Shown here in pieces: positions 9-33,330 of a stretch of 64,000 nt of DNA. Every line of letters begins with the position of its first letter. Positions within the stretch are counted from its first letter, which is position 1. The DNA comes from an uncultured cyanobacterium. GTDB lineage: Bacteria; Cyanobacteriota; Cyanobacteriia; Thermostichales; Thermostichaceae. The notes under the pieces were generated by a model. The model was not told the origin of the DNA. It saw only the letters and a program-made list of their open reading frames with translations, and ran no database searches. The position numbers were made by a program, and so were the translations under genes. Location of the stretch: contig CALFBB010000025.1 in the NCBI GenBank assembly GCA_937944885.1, positions 62,001 to 126,000 of the forward strand. The letters run 5' to 3'.

Positions 9-1610
9 TTGCTAGCAGAAGACCGGTTCTCGCAGGGTGCTACACACCGCTACGCTACTGCTGGCTTGAGTCTGGTTGCGATTGGACTCCTCTGCCTGGG
101 ATCCCCCAACCGCTGGTTGCACTGGTTTCCGGGGGCGCTGCTGGGCTTGGCACCCCTCTTTGAGCTCTGCGAACAACGGCAGGGATGGCGGCGGCTGCGC
201 CTGGTCTATGGTCTTTGGTTCTGGGTTTGCCTCTATGCCTTCTGGGTGGATCCCTTTTCGGTGCAGGTGCTCAGCCTGGGGGAGATTCTGGGTGGCGTTG
301 TGGTTGCTCCCCTGATCCCGCTTTTTTTTACGGCTGCTACGCTGCTGAGTCTCAGCTTCAGTCGGCCCTTGCCTGCGTGGGCCCGTCCCCTGGGTATAGC
401 CACTGTCTGGACAGGGTTGGATGGGCTGCTAGGTTTGCTATGGTGCCCAATTCCTTTCCATTGGGGATCCCTGTTGTTTGACTGGCCTCTGGGGATCCAG
501 ATTGCCGATGTGACCGGCATTTGGGGGGTAACCTTTTTTGCGGTTTTTGTGAACGGGGTGCTCTGGCAGCTGGCAAAGCAGGGCTGGCACCTGGGGAAGG
601 TCGGATCTTCTGCGGCAAGGTGCTACGCACCGCTATCGCGAACGGCTGGTGTGAAGAACTCCAGCTTCTGGTCTAGCTTGGCTTGTGGATTGGGGCTCAG
701 TGGACTGGTTTTGGGCTACGGCGCTGTGCGGCTGGCCCATTTTGATGCTCTGGCTGCTGCTCAGCAGGATCCCCGCTTCCGAGTGGGAACTGTACAGCAG
801 GTGGCCTGGCTAGAAGCAGATCGCAGTTGGGAGTATCGCCTACAGCGCTACCAGGAGCTGCATAATCTTTCCCGACAGGCAGTGGAGCAAGGGGCAGAGC
901 TGGTGATCTGGCCGGAGGGAGCCCTGCGGGCGCGGCTGCTCAATACAGGCTTAGAACCCTATGTTCTTGAGCCAATGCAAGGGATCCTGCCCCCTCAGGG
1001 GGCGCTGATTACCGGAGCCACAGAACCGGATCCCCGCACCGCAGATTGGCCGGAGGAGCGGAAGCGTTTTTTCAATACGGCTCTCCTGTTTGATGCACAA
1101 GGGAATCTGCTGGATTGGTTCGGCAAGCAGTGGATCTTTCCCTATTTTGAATCGGGGCGCTATGTACCCTCACCGGATGGTTACCGACCGCTGGCAGCAG
1201 GGGAGCGTTTTGGCGCTTTGGGGGTGATGATTTGTCTGGAGAGTGTCTTGCCGGCCCCTAGTCGGCGGCTAACCGCCCATGGAGCTGAGTCTTTGGTCGT
1301 CATCTCGGACGATAGCTGGTTTGGCAATAGCCATTGGCCGATGCTGCACGGTAGGCTCTCGGTTTTTCGGGCCGTTGAAAATCGCCGTAGTGTTGTCTTT
1401 GTCAACAACACCGGCGGCAACCTGGTGGTGGATCCCTCGGGGCGGCTGCAACAGGTGGGTCCGATTTTTCAACAGGGAGTCCTCACAGGGGAGGTGATGC
1501 GGCGCTCAGAGCTCACCTTCTACAACCGCAGCGGGGATTGGCTGGCCTGGCTAACCTTGGGATTGACCTTGGGTTTGTGGCGTTGGCAAGTTGACAAGCA
1601 AGTTTTGTGA
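9..1610 (+). CDS. lnt: Apolipoprotein N-acyltransferase
   Basis: Inner-membrane enzyme that moves an acyl chain from phospholipid to the N-terminal cysteine of diacylated lipoproteins, the last step of lipoprotein maturation. About 533 residues: N-terminal hydrophobic helices (roughly residues 17-240) followed by a nitrilase-type domain. The Glu-Lys-Cys triad is visible: E303 in WPEGA, K373 in FGKQW and C409 in MICLES, followed by the conserved ISDDSWFG. The start is uncertain: TTG at 9 is the first possible start in the window, no stop precedes it, and the true start may lie upstream. Two copies of a short hairpin-forming repeat (around 35-59 and 612-642) lie in the coding sequence and add residues around 11-17 and 201-215. 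Ends convergently with prfC, with 154 bp between and no clear terminator. Confidence 0.88.
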   Translation: MLAEDRFSQGATHRYATAGLSLVAIGLLCLGSPNRWLHWFPGALLGLAPLFELCEQRQGWRRLRLVYGLWFWVCLYAFWVDPFSVQVLSLGEILGGVVVAPLIPLFFTAATLLSLSFSRPLPAWARPLGIATVWTGLDGLLGLLWCPIPFHWGSLLFDWPLGIQIADVTGIWGVTFFAVFVNGVLWQLAKQGWHLGKVGSSAARCYAPLSRTAGVKNSSFWSSLACGLGLSGLVLGYGAVRLAHFDALAAAQQDPRFRVGTVQQVAWLEADRSWEYRLQRYQELHNLSRQAVEQGAELVIWPEGALRARLLNTGLEPYVLEPMQGILPPQGALITGATEPDPRTADWPEERKRFFNTALLFDAQGNLLDWFGKQWIFPYFESGRYVPSPDGYRPLAAGERFGALGVMICLESVLPAPSRRLTAHGAESLVVISDDSWFGNSHWPMLHGRLSVFRAVENRRSVVFVNNTGGNLVVDPSGRLQQVGPIFQQGVLTGEVMRRSELTFYNRSGDWLAWLTLGLTLGLWRWQVDKQVL

Positions 1611-1764
1611 ACCTGATGGGTATCCGTATGGATCCACAGCTCCCATCGGGTGGCCGTTGGCCAGTACCCTCATCCCTCTACTGCTACTCATCATTCAATC
1701 TGAATCCAAACAGCTGACCGATGAGTATGAGTGTCCATTCTAGGTATCCACCTGAGAAAGACAC

Positions 1765-3387
1765 TTAGCCGATAGAAGACTCACTCTCAACAGTTAAGAA
1801 TGGCGCAATTTTACTGAGTTTAATCTTGGGATTGCTGCCGACAAACTGTTGTAGAGTCCACTCATTCTTGAACAAGAGGACGGGTCTTTCCTGAATATCT
1901 TTGACAATGGCCGTATTAAATAAGCTGGGAATGTTCTCCAGTGCTTCCCACCCATCCTCCACCCAGCGAGCCAGCGTGTAAGGTAACATTTCCAGACGAG
2001 TCTCCACACCGTACTCACTTTGCAGACGGTACTGCACCACCTCAAACTGCAACTGACCCACTGCTGCGACGATAGGATCCCGCTTCGACTCGTCAATCGA
2101 ATACATGATCTGTACCGCCCCTTCTTCTCGCAGCTCACTCACTCCCTTCTGGAACTGCTTAAACTTAGAGGGGTTGGGATTTTTTAAGTAGGCAAATAGC
2201 TCCGGAGAAAAGCTCGGGATCCCTGAATAGCACAATTTAGGACCGGTGTAGATGGTATCTCCAATTGTAAAGATCCCAGGATTATTAAGACCAATGACGT
2301 CCCCAGGATATGCCTCGTCAATAGAGACTCGCTCTTGAGCAAATAACTTTTGTGGGTAAGAAAGGCGAACACTGCGGTTAAGTCGGGCATGATTAACCAC
2401 CATATCTTTCTCAAACTTTCCAGAGCAAATGCGCACAAAAGCAATGCGATCTCGATGGCGGGGATCCATATTGGCTTGCAACTTAAAGACAAACCCTGTA
2501 AATTCAGGGTGTTCGGGTGGAATTGGCCCTAGAGTGCTCTCATGAGCCACAGGTGGCAGGGAATACTCTAAAAATGAATTGAGAAATAGCTCCACCCCAA
2601 AATTGGTCATGGCACTACCAAAAAAGACAGGGGTTTGCTTGCCGGCGTGCACCTGCTTCAGATCCAAACTGGGCATTAAGCCATCCAACAGCTCCAGCTC
2701 TTCCTTGAATTGGTAGTACAGATCTTTCTCAATCAATTCCTCAATCTGGGGATCCCCCAGCTTAATCACGGTGTCCTTGACGCGCACCCGGCCCTTGGCG
2801 ACCCGCTCAAAAAAATGAAACTCCTGAGTGCGGCGATCAAACACCCCCACAAACCGATCCCCAGAGCCGATCGGCCAGTTAACAGGATAGGGTTTCAGAC
2901 CCAGTTCTGTCTCGATTTCATCCATCAGTTCCAAGGGATCCCGAGTGGGCCGATCCATCTTGTTCATGAAGGTAAAAATCGGCAGTGACCGCATTTGGCA
3001 GACTTCAAACAGCTTGCGGGTCTGGGTTTCTAGCCCTTTGCCAGCATCTTCTAGCATCACTGCATTGTCGGCAGCAGCCAGCGTGCGGTAGGTATCTTCA
3101 CTAAAATCTTGGTGACCGGGGGTATCCAGTAGGTTGAGGCGGATGTTGCGGTAATCAAATTGCAACACAGTGGAGGTAATAGAAATACCACGCTGTTTTT
3201 CCAGCTCCATCCAATCAGAGGTAACCCGCTTTTGGGCACGGCGGGCCTTCACTGCTCCTGCTTCCTGAATAGCCCCCCCGTAGAGCAAGAGTTTTTCGGT
3301 GAGGGTGGTTTTCCCGGCATCGGGGTGGGAAATGATGGCGAAAGTGCGCCGCCGCTCTGCCTCCTTGGCCAAATCGAGTGCTTGCAT
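1765..3387 (-). CDS. prfC: Peptide chain release factor 3 (RF3)
   Basis: Translational GTPase that recycles RF1/RF2 from the ribosome after peptide release. At 540 residues it is close to the usual 525-540. Near the N-terminus the P-loop reads SHPDAGKTT, switch II reads [16 protein letters not shown], and the G4 motif is NKMDR followed by PTRDP, which fits RF3 rather than EF-G. The ATG at 3385-3387 begins [18 protein letters not shown], as in the family. The gene stands alone, with about 190 bp without a gene upstream before the 244 aa ORF. No frameshift or missing motif seen. Confidence 0.95.
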
Positions 3388-3575: not shown

Positions 3576-4310
3576 TCAAAGCAGGTGCTGCTCGTTTAGA
3601 AGCTGCTCGATGGTAGCAATGGTGTGGTTTTGGCTAATCACCAGCCGCTCTACGCGAATGCGGTGAGCCTGCAGTAGACAGTCCTGCTGCACCGGCTTGG
3701 GCAGTTGCTCCCAGTGATCCAGCAAAACTTCAACGAGAATCTCTCCCGGTAGGCCAGTGCTGGTTTGTAGGGATCCCAGTTTTTCAATCGTATGGACAGA
3801 ACATTTGAGGGTGAGCTCTTGTAGGCCCAGTTCTGCATCCAGAGCCTGACGCGGATCCGCTAGACTTGCCACCGGATCAAGCATGGGTGAACCCGGTAGG
3901 GGAGCAACCTTATCATTCCGACATAGCCCATTGCCGTTGGCGTTGTCGGTACAGACAGAAGGCAACTTGGCTGGCCTGACCAATTCAGCCTGACCGACAG
4001 GGGAAGGCACTGCCGAGGCGGTGCTCCTCTCAATCTCCACAGGATGGGGTACCGACTCTGGTGGAGGATCTTCGGGTGGAGCAGCAGCAATGGCCAGAAC
4101 GGACTCCTGGGGCGGCTTGGAGGAAAGAACAGCTGCTGGAGCAAGCGGTTCTACAGGTTCAACAGCCGCTACCCTCAAGTGAGGTGGTTTTTGAGCAGGT
4201 GGGGGGACAATCGGTTCCGGCTCCCTATTCACCCCCATACGGGAGAGCAGATCTGCTTTGGTGGGGCCGGTGGGTAGTTTTTTCTTGGGAGACTTTTTGG
4301 CGGTAACCAT
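3576..4310 (-). CDS. Putative ribbon-helix-helix partner protein of the ParA-like ATPase
   Basis: No firm family assignment. The 244 residues show three zones: a lysine-rich start (MVTAKKSPKKK), a proline/alanine-rich and probably disordered middle (about residues 25-150), and a folded C-terminus. The C-terminal zone (about 165-205) reads as a beta strand (ELTLKCS), a helix, a Gly-Leu-Pro turn and a second helix ending in LLDHWEQLP, a pattern like ribbon-helix-helix DNA-binding domains. A further helical tail ends in HTIATIEQLLNEQHLL. It begins one base after the stop of the ParA-like gene, so the two are almost certainly co-transcribed and coupled. ParA-type ATPases are usually paired with a cargo or DNA adaptor, so an adaptor role is the best inference. 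The RHH reading is by eye only. Confidence 0.6.
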   Translation of the reverse strand: MVTAKKSPKKKLPTGPTKADLLSRMGVNREPEPIVPPPAQKPPHLRVAAVEPVEPLAPAAVLSSKPPQESVLAIAAAPPEDPPPESVPHPVEIERSTASAVPSPVGQAELVRPAKLPSVCTDNANGNGLCRNDKVAPLPGSPMLDPVASLADPRQALDAELGLQELTLKCSVHTIEKLGSLQTSTGLPGEILVEVLLDHWEQLPKPVQQDCLLQAHRIRVERLVISQNHTIATIEQLLNEQHLL

Positions 4311-4311
4311 C

Positions 4312-5112
4312 TCAGCGAGCCCTCAACACAGCCTCAACGACTTCGCGATAGGGTTGAGCCAAGAGCTCCTCTCCCGACTCCAGCAAAGACCAACCCATGC
4401 TGTTGGTTTGTTGCACCACTGTGCTTTGCCGCACCGGCGTAAAAATGGGGATCCCTTGCATCATCTCAGCAAGCGCTTCCACAGCTGCTCGGGACATCTT
4501 GGTGCGGTTGTTGCCCACCCATTGCTCCCGTGTGGGAAGTACTCCCAAAAACTTGGGTACATGAAAATCCAGTTCCTCCAGTTCCTTGAGCAAAACCAGG
4601 GTGCTTAGGGCTCCCATCACCCCTTTTTGGGTACACTCAGTAGGTACCAGCAGCAGGTCAGCACTAAGAATGCTGTTGTAAGTGAGTAAGCCCTTGGAGG
4701 GGGGGCTGTCGATGACCAAAAAGTCATAGTCCGACAAAATTGGTCGCAGAGCCCGTTTCAAAAACAACTCCCGCCCTGGTTCCATGACAATGGCATCCAT
4801 CGCCCGGGACAGGCTGTAATCGCTAGGGGCTAGCCAAAGCCGTTCCTGACGATCCTCGTTCAAAGGGGGACGGATGATCTCGGTAATGGGCACGCGATCC
4901 ACCCCTGGTAAAATGGTCTCCGCAATCGTGGCCGATTCTGATAAATCCGTCCAGCCCAGCCACTGGCTTAAATTGCCCTGCGGGTCAAAATCGACAGCCA
5001 AGGTCTTGCCATGCTCGGCCAGCATGGTGGCTAAGTTGAGGGCGGCTGTGGTTTTACCGGATCCCCCACTCAAACAGGCAACGGTGACAACAAGCGCCGT
5101 TCTGCCGGACAT
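4312..5112 (-). CDS. ParA/MinD-superfamily ATPase lacking the signature lysine
   Basis: 266-residue small ParA-type ATPase without an N-terminal HTH. Such ATPases position plasmids, chromosome origins or protein cargo by forming dynamic gradients on the nucleoid or membrane. Near residue 14 the deviant Walker A reads SGGSGKTT; canonical ParA proteins have KGGxGKT, so the signature lysine is replaced by serine. Later motifs are normal: AVDFDPQGNLS (switch I/Walker A'), DFLVIDSPPS (Walker B) and VPTECTQKG. The carboxysome-positioning ATPase McdA of Synechococcus elongatus is known for the same lysine-to-serine change, so an McdA-like role is possible but not shown. The next gene, one base downstream, encodes the probable partner. 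A 10-bp palindrome (5150-5159) lies about 40 bp upstream of the start. Confidence 0.85.
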   Translation of the reverse strand: MSGRTALVVTVACLSGGSGKTTAALNLATMLAEHGKTLAVDFDPQGNLSQWLGWTDLSESATIAETILPGVDRVPITEIIRPPLNEDRQERLWLAPSDYSLSRAMDAIVMEPGRELFLKRALRPILSDYDFLVIDSPPSKGLLTYNSILSADLLLVPTECTQKGVMGALSTLVLLKELEELDFHVPKFLGVLPTREQWVGNNRTKMSRAAVEALAEMMQGIPIFTPVRQSTVVQQTNSMGWSLLESGEELLAQPYREVVEAVLRAR

Positions 5113-5257
5113 GAGTCATCCCCTCACAGTCAGTTCCCTAACACTATAGCTAGCGCTAGGCAACAGCGTTTACACTTTATGTAGGGATTGAAAAGGGATC
5201 CGATGGCACCCCCAGGACAGACCCCTCTGGGTAAAAAAGGAAGGGGGGTTTCGAGAC

Positions 5258-8288: not shown

Positions 8289-9719
8289 ATGACTGCTGTT
8301 GCCCAACCTGCCCCCCTTTGGTTTTTGGCCCTGTCTCAACCGGCTCAGGAGTTTGGCCCGATATCCCTGAGTGTCCTTTCGGGCCGCCTGCCTGCTGGCT
8401 TACAGGGATCCCTGTACCGCAATGGGCCTGCTCGTCTGCAGCGGGGTCAGGAACGGGTTGGCCACTGGTTTGATGGGGATGGGGCCATTTTGGCCGTTCA
8501 CTTCCGCTCAGGTCAGGCCACAGGGCTTTACCGCTATGTGCAGACCGCCGGCTACTGCGCTGAGGAACAGGCAGGGCGCTACCTATTCGGGGGATACGGC
8601 ATGCGGGCCAAACGGCCAGGGCAGCCCCCCAAAAATGCCGCCAATACCTCAGTCTTGGCCCTGCCGGATCGGTTGTGGGCTCTCTGGGAAGCCGGCCTCC
8701 CCCACTGCTTGGATCTAGAGACCCTAACCACCCAAGGCTTGGATGATCTGGGACAAGCTGGAGCTTTGAGGGCTTACTCTGCCCATCCCAAACGGGATCC
8801 CCTCACGGGCGAGATCTATAACTTTGGGGTGGAGCTGGGCCATTGGCAACAGGGGGGGGGAATCCTTACAGCCACCCTTCACCTCTACCGCAGCGATGCC
8901 TATGGCCGCATCCAAGCCCATGCTCGTCATCCCTTGCCGGGATTGCCCTTGATCCACGATTTTGTTTTGGCCGGGCGTTACCTGGTTTTTTTGCTGCCGC
9001 CAGTACACCTTAACCTCTGGCCGGTGCTAGCTACCCTAAAAAGCTACAGCGACAGCCTCTACTGGGATCCCCACCAAGCCACGCAGGTGTGGGTTTTTGA
9101 CCGCCAGACCTTACAACGGCTCAGCCGCAACGAGATGGAGCCTTGCTTTCAGTGGCATTTCGGCCATGGGTACGAAGACCAAGAAGGAGCGGTGGTCTTA
9201 ACCCAAGTGCGCTACCCTGACTTTACCATCAACCGCTATCTGGCGGAAGTGGCGCAGGGACATACCCAAACAACAGCAACAGCTTCCCTCTGGCAGATGC
9301 GTTTGCATCCCCAATCAGGACAGCTACTCCAGGCAGAACCCTGCTTGCAACGCCCCTGTGAATTTCCTACCATTCATCCGGCCCGGCCCCATCGCTACCT
9401 CTATCTGCTCCTGCACCGTCAAGGGGTGGATCCCAGCCAGGAAATGTTTGGCAGCATTGGCCGTGTGGATCTGCGAACGGGATCCCTGCTCGAAGCGGAT
9501 CTCGGAGAAGGCCGTTACCCTAGCGAGCTGATCTATGCCCCCGCTGCTGAGGATCCCGGTCGTGGCTGGCTGCTGAGCGTGGTTTTTGATGGCCAGCAAG
9601 GTCGCTCCGAAGTTTGGATCTGGGATGCGGATCACCTAGACGAGGAGCCTCGCTGCCGCCTGGAGCTTCCCAAGCCCATCCCACCGGGATTTCATGGCAC
9701 CTGGAGAAGCCAACTGTAA
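8289..9719 (+). CDS. Carotenoid cleavage oxygenase (apocarotenoid-15,15'-oxygenase type)
   Basis: Non-haem iron enzyme that splits carotenoid or apocarotenoid double bonds, giving retinal-type products in cyanobacterial relatives. 476 residues, near the roughly 490 of Synechocystis ACO. Four candidate iron-binding histidines of the seven-bladed propeller fold are visible: H166 (SAHPKRDP), H223 (LIHDF), H290 (QWHFGHGYE) and H469 (GFHGTW). The N-terminal SLYRNGPA and HWFDGDGAI blocks are also typical. ATG at 8289 has no good Shine-Dalgarno sequence and lies only 14 bp from the divergent ATG at 8274, so the start could be slightly different. The exact substrate cannot be told from sequence. Confidence 0.9.
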   Translation: MTAVAQPAPLWFLALSQPAQEFGPISLSVLSGRLPAGLQGSLYRNGPARLQRGQERVGHWFDGDGAILAVHFRSGQATGLYRYVQTAGYCAEEQAGRYLFGGYGMRAKRPGQPPKNAANTSVLALPDRLWALWEAGLPHCLDLETLTTQGLDDLGQAGALRAYSAHPKRDPLTGEIYNFGVELGHWQQGGGILTATLHLYRSDAYGRIQAHARHPLPGLPLIHDFVLAGRYLVFLLPPVHLNLWPVLATLKSYSDSLYWDPHQATQVWVFDRQTLQRLSRNEMEPCFQWHFGHGYEDQEGAVVLTQVRYPDFTINRYLAEVAQGHTQTTATASLWQMRLHPQSGQLLQAEPCLQRPCEFPTIHPARPHRYLYLLLHRQGVDPSQEMFGSIGRVDLRTGSLLEADLGEGRYPSELIYAPAAEDPGRGWLLSVVFDGQQGRSEVWIWDADHLDEEPRCRLELPKPIPPGFHGTWRSQL

Positions 9720-9758
9720 CAGGCTTGCCGTCAGCCTACCCCTATCTACCAAATTACC

Positions 9759-9787
9759 TTGAAAGGATAAAGCCAGTCTGGTAGACT
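9759..9787 (+). promoter_or_regulatory. Candidate sigma-70 promoter before the arsenate cassette
   Basis: TTGAAA at 9759-9764 and TAGACT at 9782-9787 are separated by exactly 17 bp, 64 bp before the ATG of the GAPDH gene. It is the best -35/-10 pair in this spacer. No clear ArsR-type inverted repeat accompanies it. Confidence 0.4.
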
Positions 9788-9850
9788 CGATGCGGGATCC
9801 CGGCTAAAGGCACAACCCTCGATCAGGACGCACACAGGGGGCAGGCGAGG

Positions 9851-10861
9851 ATGGCGACACGAGTTGGTATCAACGGTTTTGGACGGATCGGGCGATTGGC
9901 TTTACGGGCTGCTTGGGGCTGTTCAGAGTTGGAGTTTGTTCACATTAACGAGATCAAAGGTGGGGCGGCAACTGCGGCTCACCTGCTCAAGTTTGACTCG
10001 GTGCAAGGCCGTTGGGATATCGACCTGGAAGGATGCGGCGATCGGCTGCGCATCCAGGACAAAACCCTCACCTTTAGTGAATACAAATCCCCCGGAGAAG
10101 TTCCCTGGGCAGATCTAGGAGTGGATCTTGTCATAGAAAGCTCCGGCAAGTTTGTTAAAGCAGCAGAGCTAGATGCCTATTTCAAAGCAGGGGTGCGCAA
10201 GGTGATCGTGGCGGCCCCAGTAAAGGATGAAGAGGCCCTCAACATTGTCATGGGGGTGAACGATCACCTCTACGATCCGACCCGGCACCATTTGCTCACA
10301 GCTGCTTCCTGTACCACCAACTGTCTGGCCCCGCTGGTGAAGGTAATTCACGAAGGGATTGGCATCCTCCATGGGGTAATCACCACCGTTCACGACGTTA
10401 CCAATACCCAAACCATGGTGGATGCCCCTCATAAGGATCTGCGGCGGGCCCGCTCAGCCCTCTTGTCTTTGGTACCCACCACCACCGGCTCGGCTACTGC
10501 CATCGGTCTGATTTACCCGGAGCTAAACGGCAAGCTCAATGGGTTGGCAGTGCGGGTTCCCCTGTTGAATGCTTCCCTGACGGATGCGGTGTTTGAGGTG
10601 AAGCGGTCCACCACCGTCGAGGAGGTAAATCAACTGCTCAAAACCTCGGCAGAAGGGGAACTCAAGGGGATCCTCGGCTACGAAGAACTGCCCCTGGTCT
10701 CGGTGGATTTCAAAGGGGATCCCCGCTCTAGCATCGTGGATGCCCCATCTACCATGGTGGTGGACGGCACGCAGGTGAAGATTTTGGCTTGGTACGACAA
10801 CGAATGGGGCTATGCCAACCGCATGGCAGAATTGGCCCGCAAGGTGGCTCGCAGCCTTTAA
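9851..10861 (+). CDS. ArsJ-associated glyceraldehyde-3-phosphate dehydrogenase
   Basis: 336-residue phosphorylating GAPDH with the NAD-binding start [12 protein letters not shown], catalytic C154 ([10 protein letters not shown]) and H181 ([10 protein letters not shown]). The next gene, 117 bp downstream on the same strand, encodes ArsJ. In characterised ArsJ systems a dedicated GAPDH uses arsenate in place of phosphate to make 1-arseno-3-phosphoglycerate, which ArsJ exports. This assignment rests on linkage and overall sequence and is stronger than calling it the glycolytic or Calvin-cycle enzyme. The Calvin-cycle Gap2 would be expected elsewhere in the genome. A good promoter (9759-9787) precedes the gene. 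Confidence 0.85.
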
Positions 10862-10978
10862 GTGTCTTCAACTCCACCTCTGGGCAGAGATGATTCGAGA
10901 GAGCACTCACAAGAAAGCAGCAAAAGGACCTGAGAATCCTGTTAAACCTGTGAAACTAGCCCTGGAGAACCCACCATC

Positions 10979-31905: not shown

Positions 31906-33330
31906 GTGGCCTATTCAGCAACCCAATCCAAAGCCGGCTATCAAGCCGGGGTAAAGGATTACAAACTGACCTACTACACACCCGATTACACACCTAAGGA
32001 TACTGATGTTCTGGCCTGTTTCCGGGTTACTCCCCAACCAGGTGTTCCACCTGAAGAGGCAGGGGCGGCGGTGGCGGCTGAGTCTTCAACCGGCACCTGG
32101 ACAACAGTGTGGACAGATTTGCTCACCGACTTGGATCGCTACAAGGGCCGTTGCTACGACATTGAGCCGGTGCCGGGGGAAGATAACCAATACTTCTGCT
32201 TTGTGGCCTATCCGCTGGACCTGTTTGAGGAAGGTTCTGTTACCAATTTGCTCACCTCGATTGTGGGCAATGTGTTTGGCTTCAAGGCCCTGAAGGCACT
32301 CCGTCTAGAGGATCTGCGCATTCCGGTTGCCTATCTGAAGACTTTCCAGGGGCCTCCCCACGGCATTCAGGTAGAGCGGGACAAGCTGAACAAGTATGGT
32401 CGCCCGCTTTTGGGTTGTACCATCAAGCCGAAGTTGGGGCTGTCCGCCAAAAACTACGGTCGGGCGGTGTATGAGTGCTTGCGGGGTGGCTTGGACTTTA
32501 CCAAGGATGACGAGAACGTCAACAGTCAGCCTTTTATGCGCTGGCGGGATCGCTACTTATTTGTCATGGATGCGGTTCACAAAGCGCAAGCGGAAACTGG
32601 GGAAATTAAGGGGCACTACCTGAATGTTACGGCTCCCACCTGTGAAGAGATGTTCAAGCGGGCCGAGTTTGCCAAGGAGCTCAAGGCCCCGATCATCATG
32701 CACGACTACCTGACCGGGGGCTTTACCGCCAACACGAGCTTGGCCAAGTGGTGTCGTGACAACGGTATCCTTCTGCATATTCACCGTGCCATGCACGCGG
32801 TGATCGACCGGCAGAAAAACCACGGCATTCACTTCCGGGTGCTGGCCAAGTGCTTGCGCATGTCTGGGGGGGATCACCTCCATTCCGGTACCGTGGTGGG
32901 CAAACTGGAAGGGGAACGCAACATCACCCTGGGTTTTGTGGATCAAATGCGGGAAAACTACGTGGAAGCGGATCGCTCCCGGGGCAATTTCTTCACCCAA
33001 GATTGGGCTTCTATGCCCGGTGTGATGCCGGTGGCTTCCGGTGGGATCCACATCTGGCACATGCCGGCGCTGGTGGAGATCTTTGGTGACGACTCCTGCC
33101 TGCAGTTTGGTGGCGGTACCCTGGGTCACCCCTGGGGCAATGCACCGGGTGCTACGGCCAACCGGGTGGCTCTGGAGGCCTGTATCCAAGCCCGCAACGA
33201 AGGTCGGGACCTGGCCCGCGAAGGCAACGATGTGATTCGCGAAGCGGCCAAATGGTCACCGGAACTGGCAGCTGCCTGCGAGCTGTGGAAAGAAATCAAG
33301 TTCGAGTTTAAGGCCGTTGATACCCTCTAG
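31906..33330 (+). CDS. rbcL: RuBisCO large subunit, form IB
   Basis: Catalyses carboxylation of ribulose-1,5-bisphosphate in the Calvin cycle, inside carboxysomes. 474 residues from GTG 31906 with AGAGGGAG just before it. The active site is complete: [17 protein letters not shown] with the carbamylated lysine, [32 protein letters not shown] and the late [10 protein letters not shown]. Sequence and the following rbcX and rbcS place it in form IB. First gene of rbcL-rbcX-rbcS. No carboxysome shell genes are adjacent. Confidence 0.98.

Follow-up and report, generated by a model that had tools for sequence, protein, structure and literature searches.

The window analyzed here, a stretch of 64,000 nucleotides from an uncultured member of the Thermostichaceae (contig C25, positions 62,001–126,000, of the 2.8 Mb genome G000), encodes two adjacent genes on its reverse strand: a 266-amino-acid ATPase of the ParA/McdA family (positions 4312 to 5112) and, 1 bp after its stop codon, a 244-amino-acid partner, or adaptor, that has no C-terminal tryptophan (positions 3576 to 4310). 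The open reading frame of the ATPase is genuine, and its assignment is based on Pfam (AAA_31, E = 2.4e-34, and CbiA), on conservation, and on PDB relatives, of which the top ones are the Cyanothece McdA structures 6NON, 6NOO, and 6NOP (E ~3e-36), likewise without the signature lysine. The P-loop translates as ACLSGGSGKTT, and translation and alignment both place a serine at the signature-lysine position of the Walker A motif (SGGSGKTT, residues 15–22; positions 5047 to 5070, reverse strand). This serine was identical in all nine Thermostichaceae and plasmid orthologues aligned, and therefore is not a sequencing accident; it was also found in seven further members. The substitution, first noted from the window sequence alone, is thus confirmed in the gene and in every aligned orthologue, as is the presence of rbcL ~27 kb from the ATPase gene (positions 31906 to 33330). 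Within the genus, the ATPase gene is under purifying selection (dN 0.025–0.034 versus dS 0.69–0.94; dN/dS ~0.035). A search of viral contigs for relatives yielded only distant ParAs (26%–30%). Beta type 1 McdA proteins lack the signature lysine of the deviant Walker A box and feature a large mid-protein extension (PMC8262871). Alignments showed a large insertion neither in the window ATPase nor in S. elongatus-like proteins (254–255 amino acids).

Apparent relocation of the signature lysine

The original prediction held that the signature lysine was missing. This is true of the P-loop, but the residue appears to have been relocated rather than simply lost. In an alignment of 53 proteins, Lys163 of the window ATPase (within QKGV; positions 4624 to 4626, reverse strand) aligned with residue 151 of Cyanothece McdA (residue 171 of the 6NOO chain, less a 20-residue tag). 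A lysine occupied this column in 35 out of 35 lysine-lacking ParAs, including four of another group with valine after the two glycines, and in none of the 13 KGG ParAs. We take this column to be the distal lysine of Schumacher et al. 2019, which reportedly stands in for the signature lysine in Cyanothece McdA.

The likeness to S. elongatus McdA that was drawn from the serine substitution is real, since both share it, but it is not specific. In one locus (L034, positions 1420–3242), the protein encoded after a lysine-displaced ParA (NQSGGVGKST) has ParB_N (2.9e-30) and HTH_ParB domains, so that here the signature lysine is lost inside a standard ParAB pair. Because a lysine-lacking ParA can be paired with a canonical ParB, this loss alone is no marker of carboxysome cargo. 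The two are easily confused, and the results here separate them: in the ParAs aligned, loss of the P-loop lysine always came with a lysine elsewhere.

Phylogeny and distribution of the pair

In a C20 tree of 53 ParAs, the window ATPase grouped with other Thermostichaceae and three further sequences (support 95/97). The sister of this group was a clade comprising S. elongatus-type McdA (L022 and L024, whose McdB ends in LHGW; 37%–38% identical to the window ATPase), the Cyanothece plasmid protein, and many other ParAs (joint support 98/93). Clustering with type 1 McdA, originally named as a supporting outcome, was therefore upheld at the level of a common lysine-lacking lineage, but the protein falls in a sister clade and not inside the McdA group. 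No clustering with ordinary plasmid ParAs was seen either, and we rejected identification as an ordinary KGG plasmid ParA, the window ATPase lying far from the KGG ParAs in this tree.

The three group members from outside the Thermostichaceae are a homologue on plasmid p2 of Calothrix PCC 7716 (70% identical to the window ATPase), one on plasmid Cy782201 of Gloeothece PCC 7822 (63% identical), both confirmed plasmids, and one on contig C2 of genome G331, a separate 332-kb contig in a four-contig genome. A second tree, to which seven relatives from a genome scan were added, placed the Thermostichaceae (100/99) within a group of other cyanobacterial homologues (99/97), with the copy on the 332-kb replicon as their immediate sister (97/90). 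Several of the added members are MAG contigs, and plasmid location was counted only where the replicon is known. Rooting on the McdA family, together with the nested position of the Thermostichaceae, indicates that the chromosomal form arose from forms located on plasmids in every case where the location is known.

The gene pair was found in four of the five other genomes of the genus (ParA 94%–95% identical). Beyond the genus, two further genera of this family have it, represented by the MAGs Synechococcaceae cyanobacterium SM2_3_1 and SM2_3_2 (ParA 75%–77% identical). It is thus retained in seven of eight family genomes and in three genera, with flanks that differ between them. Within the genus, it sits between the aspartate aminotransferase gene (aspC) and prfC, and in G004 this location is on a single-contig chromosome, not on a plasmid. 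These results bear out the original description of a chromosomal ParA-like ATPase with an adjacent adaptor, and the expectation that relatives would carry the same pair. Low dN/dS of the ATPase gene and retention in most family genomes imply a selected function. The exception is the complete genome G001 of the same genus (one contig, 2,932,766 bp), which has lost the ATPase gene. Between its aspC and prfC lies an 85-amino-acid remnant of the partner (L010, positions 1459–1716). The remnant is still an open frame, with most of the linker gone, the N-terminus joined almost directly to the C-terminal domain, and much of the predicted ribbon-helix-helix (RHH) domain left.

Partner with a predicted ribbon-helix-helix core

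Searches of Pfam, NCBIfam, and PHROGs with the full partner returned no usable match. An alignment of eight partners revealed N-termini of the form M..PKKKLPTGP, an unconserved linker, and a common C-terminal domain. The conserved motif PKKKLPTGP (residues 8–16; positions 4263 to 4289, reverse strand) is probably a tail that contacts the ATPase. The linker of the window partner, by inspection of its translation, is rich in proline, alanine, and glutamate with few glutamines, and the central glutamine-rich region of McdB is absent. The protein ends in NEQHLL, and its orthologues likewise have no C-terminal tryptophan. In the partner gene, dN/dS was low over the first 27 codons and over the RHH domain, and the linker was much freer to vary, as would be expected of an adaptor that works with both of its ends.

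The C-terminal domain (residues 158–244; positions 3579 to 3839, reverse strand) is predicted to consist of a strand, two short helices, and a long helix (AF2 pLDDT 92; helices at 15–28, 32–41, and 48–85 in domain numbering, after an extended strand). With this model, the top match in VIA-align was 6NOY, a plasmid-encoded McdB (6NOY_B; Z 8.8, rmsd 1.7, 79 of 79 residues). The rows that followed, well below, were mostly RHH proteins aligned over domain residues 5–48, including CopG (rmsd 1.5 over 43 residues), Arc, and NikR. Foldseek alone gave no match for the domain under E 0.001, its top rows including Reg576 and CopG only weakly, so the RHH assignment relies on several results that are weak singly but agree with one another. 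Among these, Pfam RHH_1 matched four homologues of the domain, one of them above the cut-off (7.7e-6). RHH matches to the window partner itself were not individually significant by sequence alone. Taken together, the structure and profile matches to CopG, Arc, and NikR predict an RHH-type core at residues 162–205 (positions 3696 to 3827, reverse strand). In the literature searched, no paper connected McdB with an RHH fold; the single one that mentions both applies the term RHH to different proteins.

Profile comparisons connect the partner to McdB indirectly. The window-type domain matched plasmid McdB-like partners (hhalign E = 1e-6), and these in turn matched the tryptophan-bearing McdBs of the S. 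elongatus type (E = 4.9e-8). A direct profile comparison of window-type partners with tryptophan-bearing McdBs gave no match; for this reason, and because the C-terminal tryptophan is lacking, we rejected identification of the window partner as a true McdB. Not all window-type ribbons look suited to DNA contact. In G006 and G007, which belong to two genera, the ribbon sequences, as read by eye, no longer have basic residues at the positions by which CopG contacts DNA, and these organisms may therefore have lost DNA binding. Most strains of the genus keep basic ribbon residues; the ribbon of the window partner has glutamate where its sisters carry lysine.

DNA boxes upstream of parA and within partner genes

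Directly upstream of parA, about 75 bp (positions 5113 to 5188, reverse strand) are conserved in the five genus genomes that have the pair, in contrast to the remaining intergenic DNA. This element contains AGTGT/ACACT boxes (2–3 found versus 0.09 expected per 110 bp), which form an inverted repeat, AACACTAT..ATAGTGTT, in sister genomes. It occurs in one copy per genome; a search of six genomes of the genus revealed no additional copy, and G001 no longer has it. The element is probably an operator and possibly a centromere-like site.

The plasmid-type relatives have a different box, GATTC/GAATC (often AAACAAGATTCT), which lies upstream of parA in several members. Its density was 11–20 per kb inside the partner open reading frame versus 2.4–4.8 per kb across the whole locus. 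In ten loci (L066, L067, L073, L154, L156–L160, and L162), boxes were observed in both orientations within the sequence coding for the disordered linker. Codon usage follows the boxes: Asp-Ser was encoded as GAT-TCN in 46/55 cases in partner frames versus 31/79 in other frames of the same loci (Fisher 2e-7), and Glu-Ser as GAA-TCN in 44/58 versus 44/100 (Fisher 8e-5), P values that overstate independence because the members are related and some have internal duplications. Pooled synonymous shuffles gave 62.5 boxes compared with 103 observed; some of the data tested had also served to define the box. Even so, this is how a centromere within a gene would look, possibly one lying in the gene for the protein that binds it, and it argues that the plasmid-type relatives carry DNA. 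No such array was found in chromosomal partner genes, including that of the window (GAWTC 0–4 per gene).

Two other words were over-represented. GGATCCC occurs in L021/L153 (G007) in eight copies in one 759-bp gene, four in each orientation, and in six copies in its parA; being abundant in parA too, it was set aside as a genome-wide repeat word. The same was done with CGATCGC in S. elongatus, the known HIP1 word.

Carboxysome cargo and other ParA pairs

Carboxysomes had been put forward as a candidate cargo of the pair, with a check of its position relative to the ccm genes. The pair proved to be unlinked to these; in the complete genome G004, ~77 kb separate it from the ccm cluster. In G001, all four BMC shell-domain matches persist despite the loss of the ATPase, and in G331 a textbook McdAB type 2, with the tail KDIGWFD, lies on the chromosome and the window-type pair on a separate 332-kb replicon. 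The C-terminal tryptophan absent from the window adaptor is invariant in McdBs and is required for carboxysome association (PMC11321042). Together with the placement of the ATPase in a sister clade to McdA, whose members of known location are plasmid-borne, these results speak against carboxysome cargo.

A second pair is a better carboxysome candidate than that of the window. It lies beside glgC on another contig of the same genome (C26, positions 9686–10923; L003 and L095) and consists of a KGG ParA of 260 amino acids and a coiled-coil partner of 153–190 amino acids. This pair was present in all family genomes examined, including G001, G006, and G007 (orthologues L096–L100, L133, and L135). 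Its partners have acidic tails with tyrosine or phenylalanine (DE.MPPYLLD, GDMPTFLLD, and QDMPSFMLD) that recall those of type 2 McdB (EDMGWVD). S. elongatus McdB tolerates a W152Y change (PMC11321042). Judging from these tails, the pair is possibly a variant of McdAB type 2 with tyrosine or phenylalanine in place of tryptophan.

Other ParAs were also observed in this genome. A third chromosomal one (L115, positions 1211–2127, contig C43) is a KGG protein of 211 amino acids with a 94-amino-acid partner that had no Pfam match and looks RHH-like (ParF/ParG-like) in sequence. Elsewhere (L002, positions 868–3154, contig C15), a 494-amino-acid frame begins with a restriction-enzyme-like part, continues into a KGG ParA, and is followed by a protein judged by eye to be ParB-like.

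Probable origin and cargo

On balance, we favor the interpretation that the pair descends from a partition system of cyanobacterial plasmids, became fixed in the chromosome, and works as a diffusion ratchet whose cargo would most likely be DNA, a reading that we hold with some reservation. A tamed plasmid-sharing system is more likely than a carboxysome mover because the closest relatives are on plasmids and the adaptor looks like a DNA-gripping protein. The nesting of the Thermostichaceae among plasmid-type homologues, the match of the modeled partner domain to 6NOY and RHH proteins, and the conserved upstream boxes are all consistent with this descent. ParA proteins are known to act in ratchets, and their partners stimulate ATP hydrolysis through basic N-terminal tails (PMC12204374). 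We infer a similar scheme here, including the stimulation, the binding of DNA, and which DNA is bound, beyond what the sequences, their conservation, selection, phylogeny, and the structural match of the modeled partner show directly. The ATPase would be a ParA-type nucleoid-binding switch, forming an ATP-dimer on nucleoid DNA, with the dimer-sensing lysine being K163 instead of a P-loop residue. The partner would be an adaptor resembling a centromere-binding protein, in which the basic N-terminus (PKKKLPTGP) stimulates the ATPase and triggers release, the flexible linker spans the distance to the RHH core, and this core dimerises and grips short DNA boxes. Binding to the element upstream of parA would provide autoregulation and perhaps a centromere-like site, and an ATPase gradient on the nucleoid could then position or separate the locus carrying it.

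Some observations argue against a DNA cargo, namely that the chromosomal partner genes have no plasmid-type array, that each genome offers only one short candidate site, and that ribbons have lost basic residues in G006 and G007 or, in the window partner, carry glutamate for lysine. The missing array and the ribbon losses in G006 and G007 suit a different scenario, which we regard as rather unlikely, in which the plasmid-derived module switched to a protein-based cargo in the Thermostichaceae and the C-terminal domain of the partner became an oligomerisation module. Such a switch has a precedent, since the S. elongatus-type McdB is related to plasmid McdB-like partners and McdAB apparently took the same course; the strong purifying selection also speaks for it. 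Nonetheless, the genus keeps the box element and, in most strains, the basic ribbon residues, and there is no co-located cargo candidate, the neighbors aspC and prfC being housekeeping genes. Loss of the ATPase in G001, where only the partner remnant persists, and the single-copy, operator-like nature of the element could instead indicate a selfish or addiction-like relic, i.e., a captured plasmid par operon that persists solely under its own regulation or because it confers incompatibility with related plasmids entering the cell; low dN/dS and retention in three genera with different flanks make us give this little credence. Carboxysome positioning by the window pair is unlikely as well, and that it is a bona fide McdAB type 1 is quite improbable. 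Membership of the lysine-lacking lineage of S. elongatus-type McdA, the match of the partner core to Cyanothece McdB (6NOY), and the basic partner N-terminus are compatible with it. However, the separate ATPase clade with plasmid relatives, the missing tryptophan and direct McdB match, the retention of carboxysome genes in G001, the distance to ccm, and the family-wide conservation of the KGG pair with its acidic aromatic tails all weigh against it.

A broader scenario can be offered tentatively and is perhaps doubtful. The family of lysine-displaced ParAs with RHH-core adaptors may have arisen on plasmids, where its nearest members encode a centromere-like array in the adaptor linker (GATTC as Asp-Ser, GAATC as Glu-Ser), and would have been domesticated on chromosomes at least twice, as McdAB type 1 for carboxysomes and as the Thermostichaceae pair, in which the array was lost and a new cargo gained. 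The analysis places S. elongatus-type McdAB as well as the Thermostichaceae pair with plasmid partition systems whose adaptors are of RHH type, which suggests a route by which organelle positioning could have arisen from plasmid partition, and the KGG pair points to another carboxysome-positioning candidate in early-branching hot-spring cyanobacteria.

Comparison with known systems

The closest counterpart is the pair on the conjugative plasmid pP742402 of Gloeothece (Cyanothece) PCC 7424 (L068), which was deposited as McdA (6NON to 6NOP) and McdB (6NOY) and whose McdB-like protein also has no C-terminal tryptophan. Both systems have a lysine-lacking ParA with a distal lysine and an adjacent adaptor with a basic N-terminus and the same C-terminal fold, predicted by AF2 for the window protein. 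The window pair differs in being chromosomal and in belonging to another subclade, with SGGSGKTT and DFDPQGN in place of SGGQGKTT and DADPQ; its adaptor has a longer Pro/Ala/Glu-rich linker, and the adaptor domains are ~14% identical.

With S. elongatus-type McdAB (beta type 1), the pair shares the serine for the signature lysine, the distal lysine, and the operon order of ATPase then adaptor. Unlike that system, its ATPase falls in a sister clade, and its adaptor has no C-terminal tryptophan and has a predicted RHH core with a long helix. Beta-McdAB type 2 is similarly a chromosomal cyanobacterial pair of ATPase and adaptor, but has the KGG lysine, a coiled-coil adaptor, and a C-terminal tryptophan (GWVD end); in relatives, it is represented by L104, L105, and L108 and not by the window pair. 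Type Ib partition systems (ParF/ParG and delta/omega) resemble the window pair in having a small ParA without an N-terminal HTH and a downstream partner of RHH type (predicted here) with a basic tail. For the iterated boxes that such systems have beside the operon, the conserved AGTGT/ACACT element next to the promoter in the genus is a putative counterpart; clear GATTC/GAATC arrays were seen only in plasmid-type relatives. The window pair departs from them in its chromosomal location, the absence of the signature lysine, the long linker, the extra C-terminal helix, and a centromere that is a candidate only.
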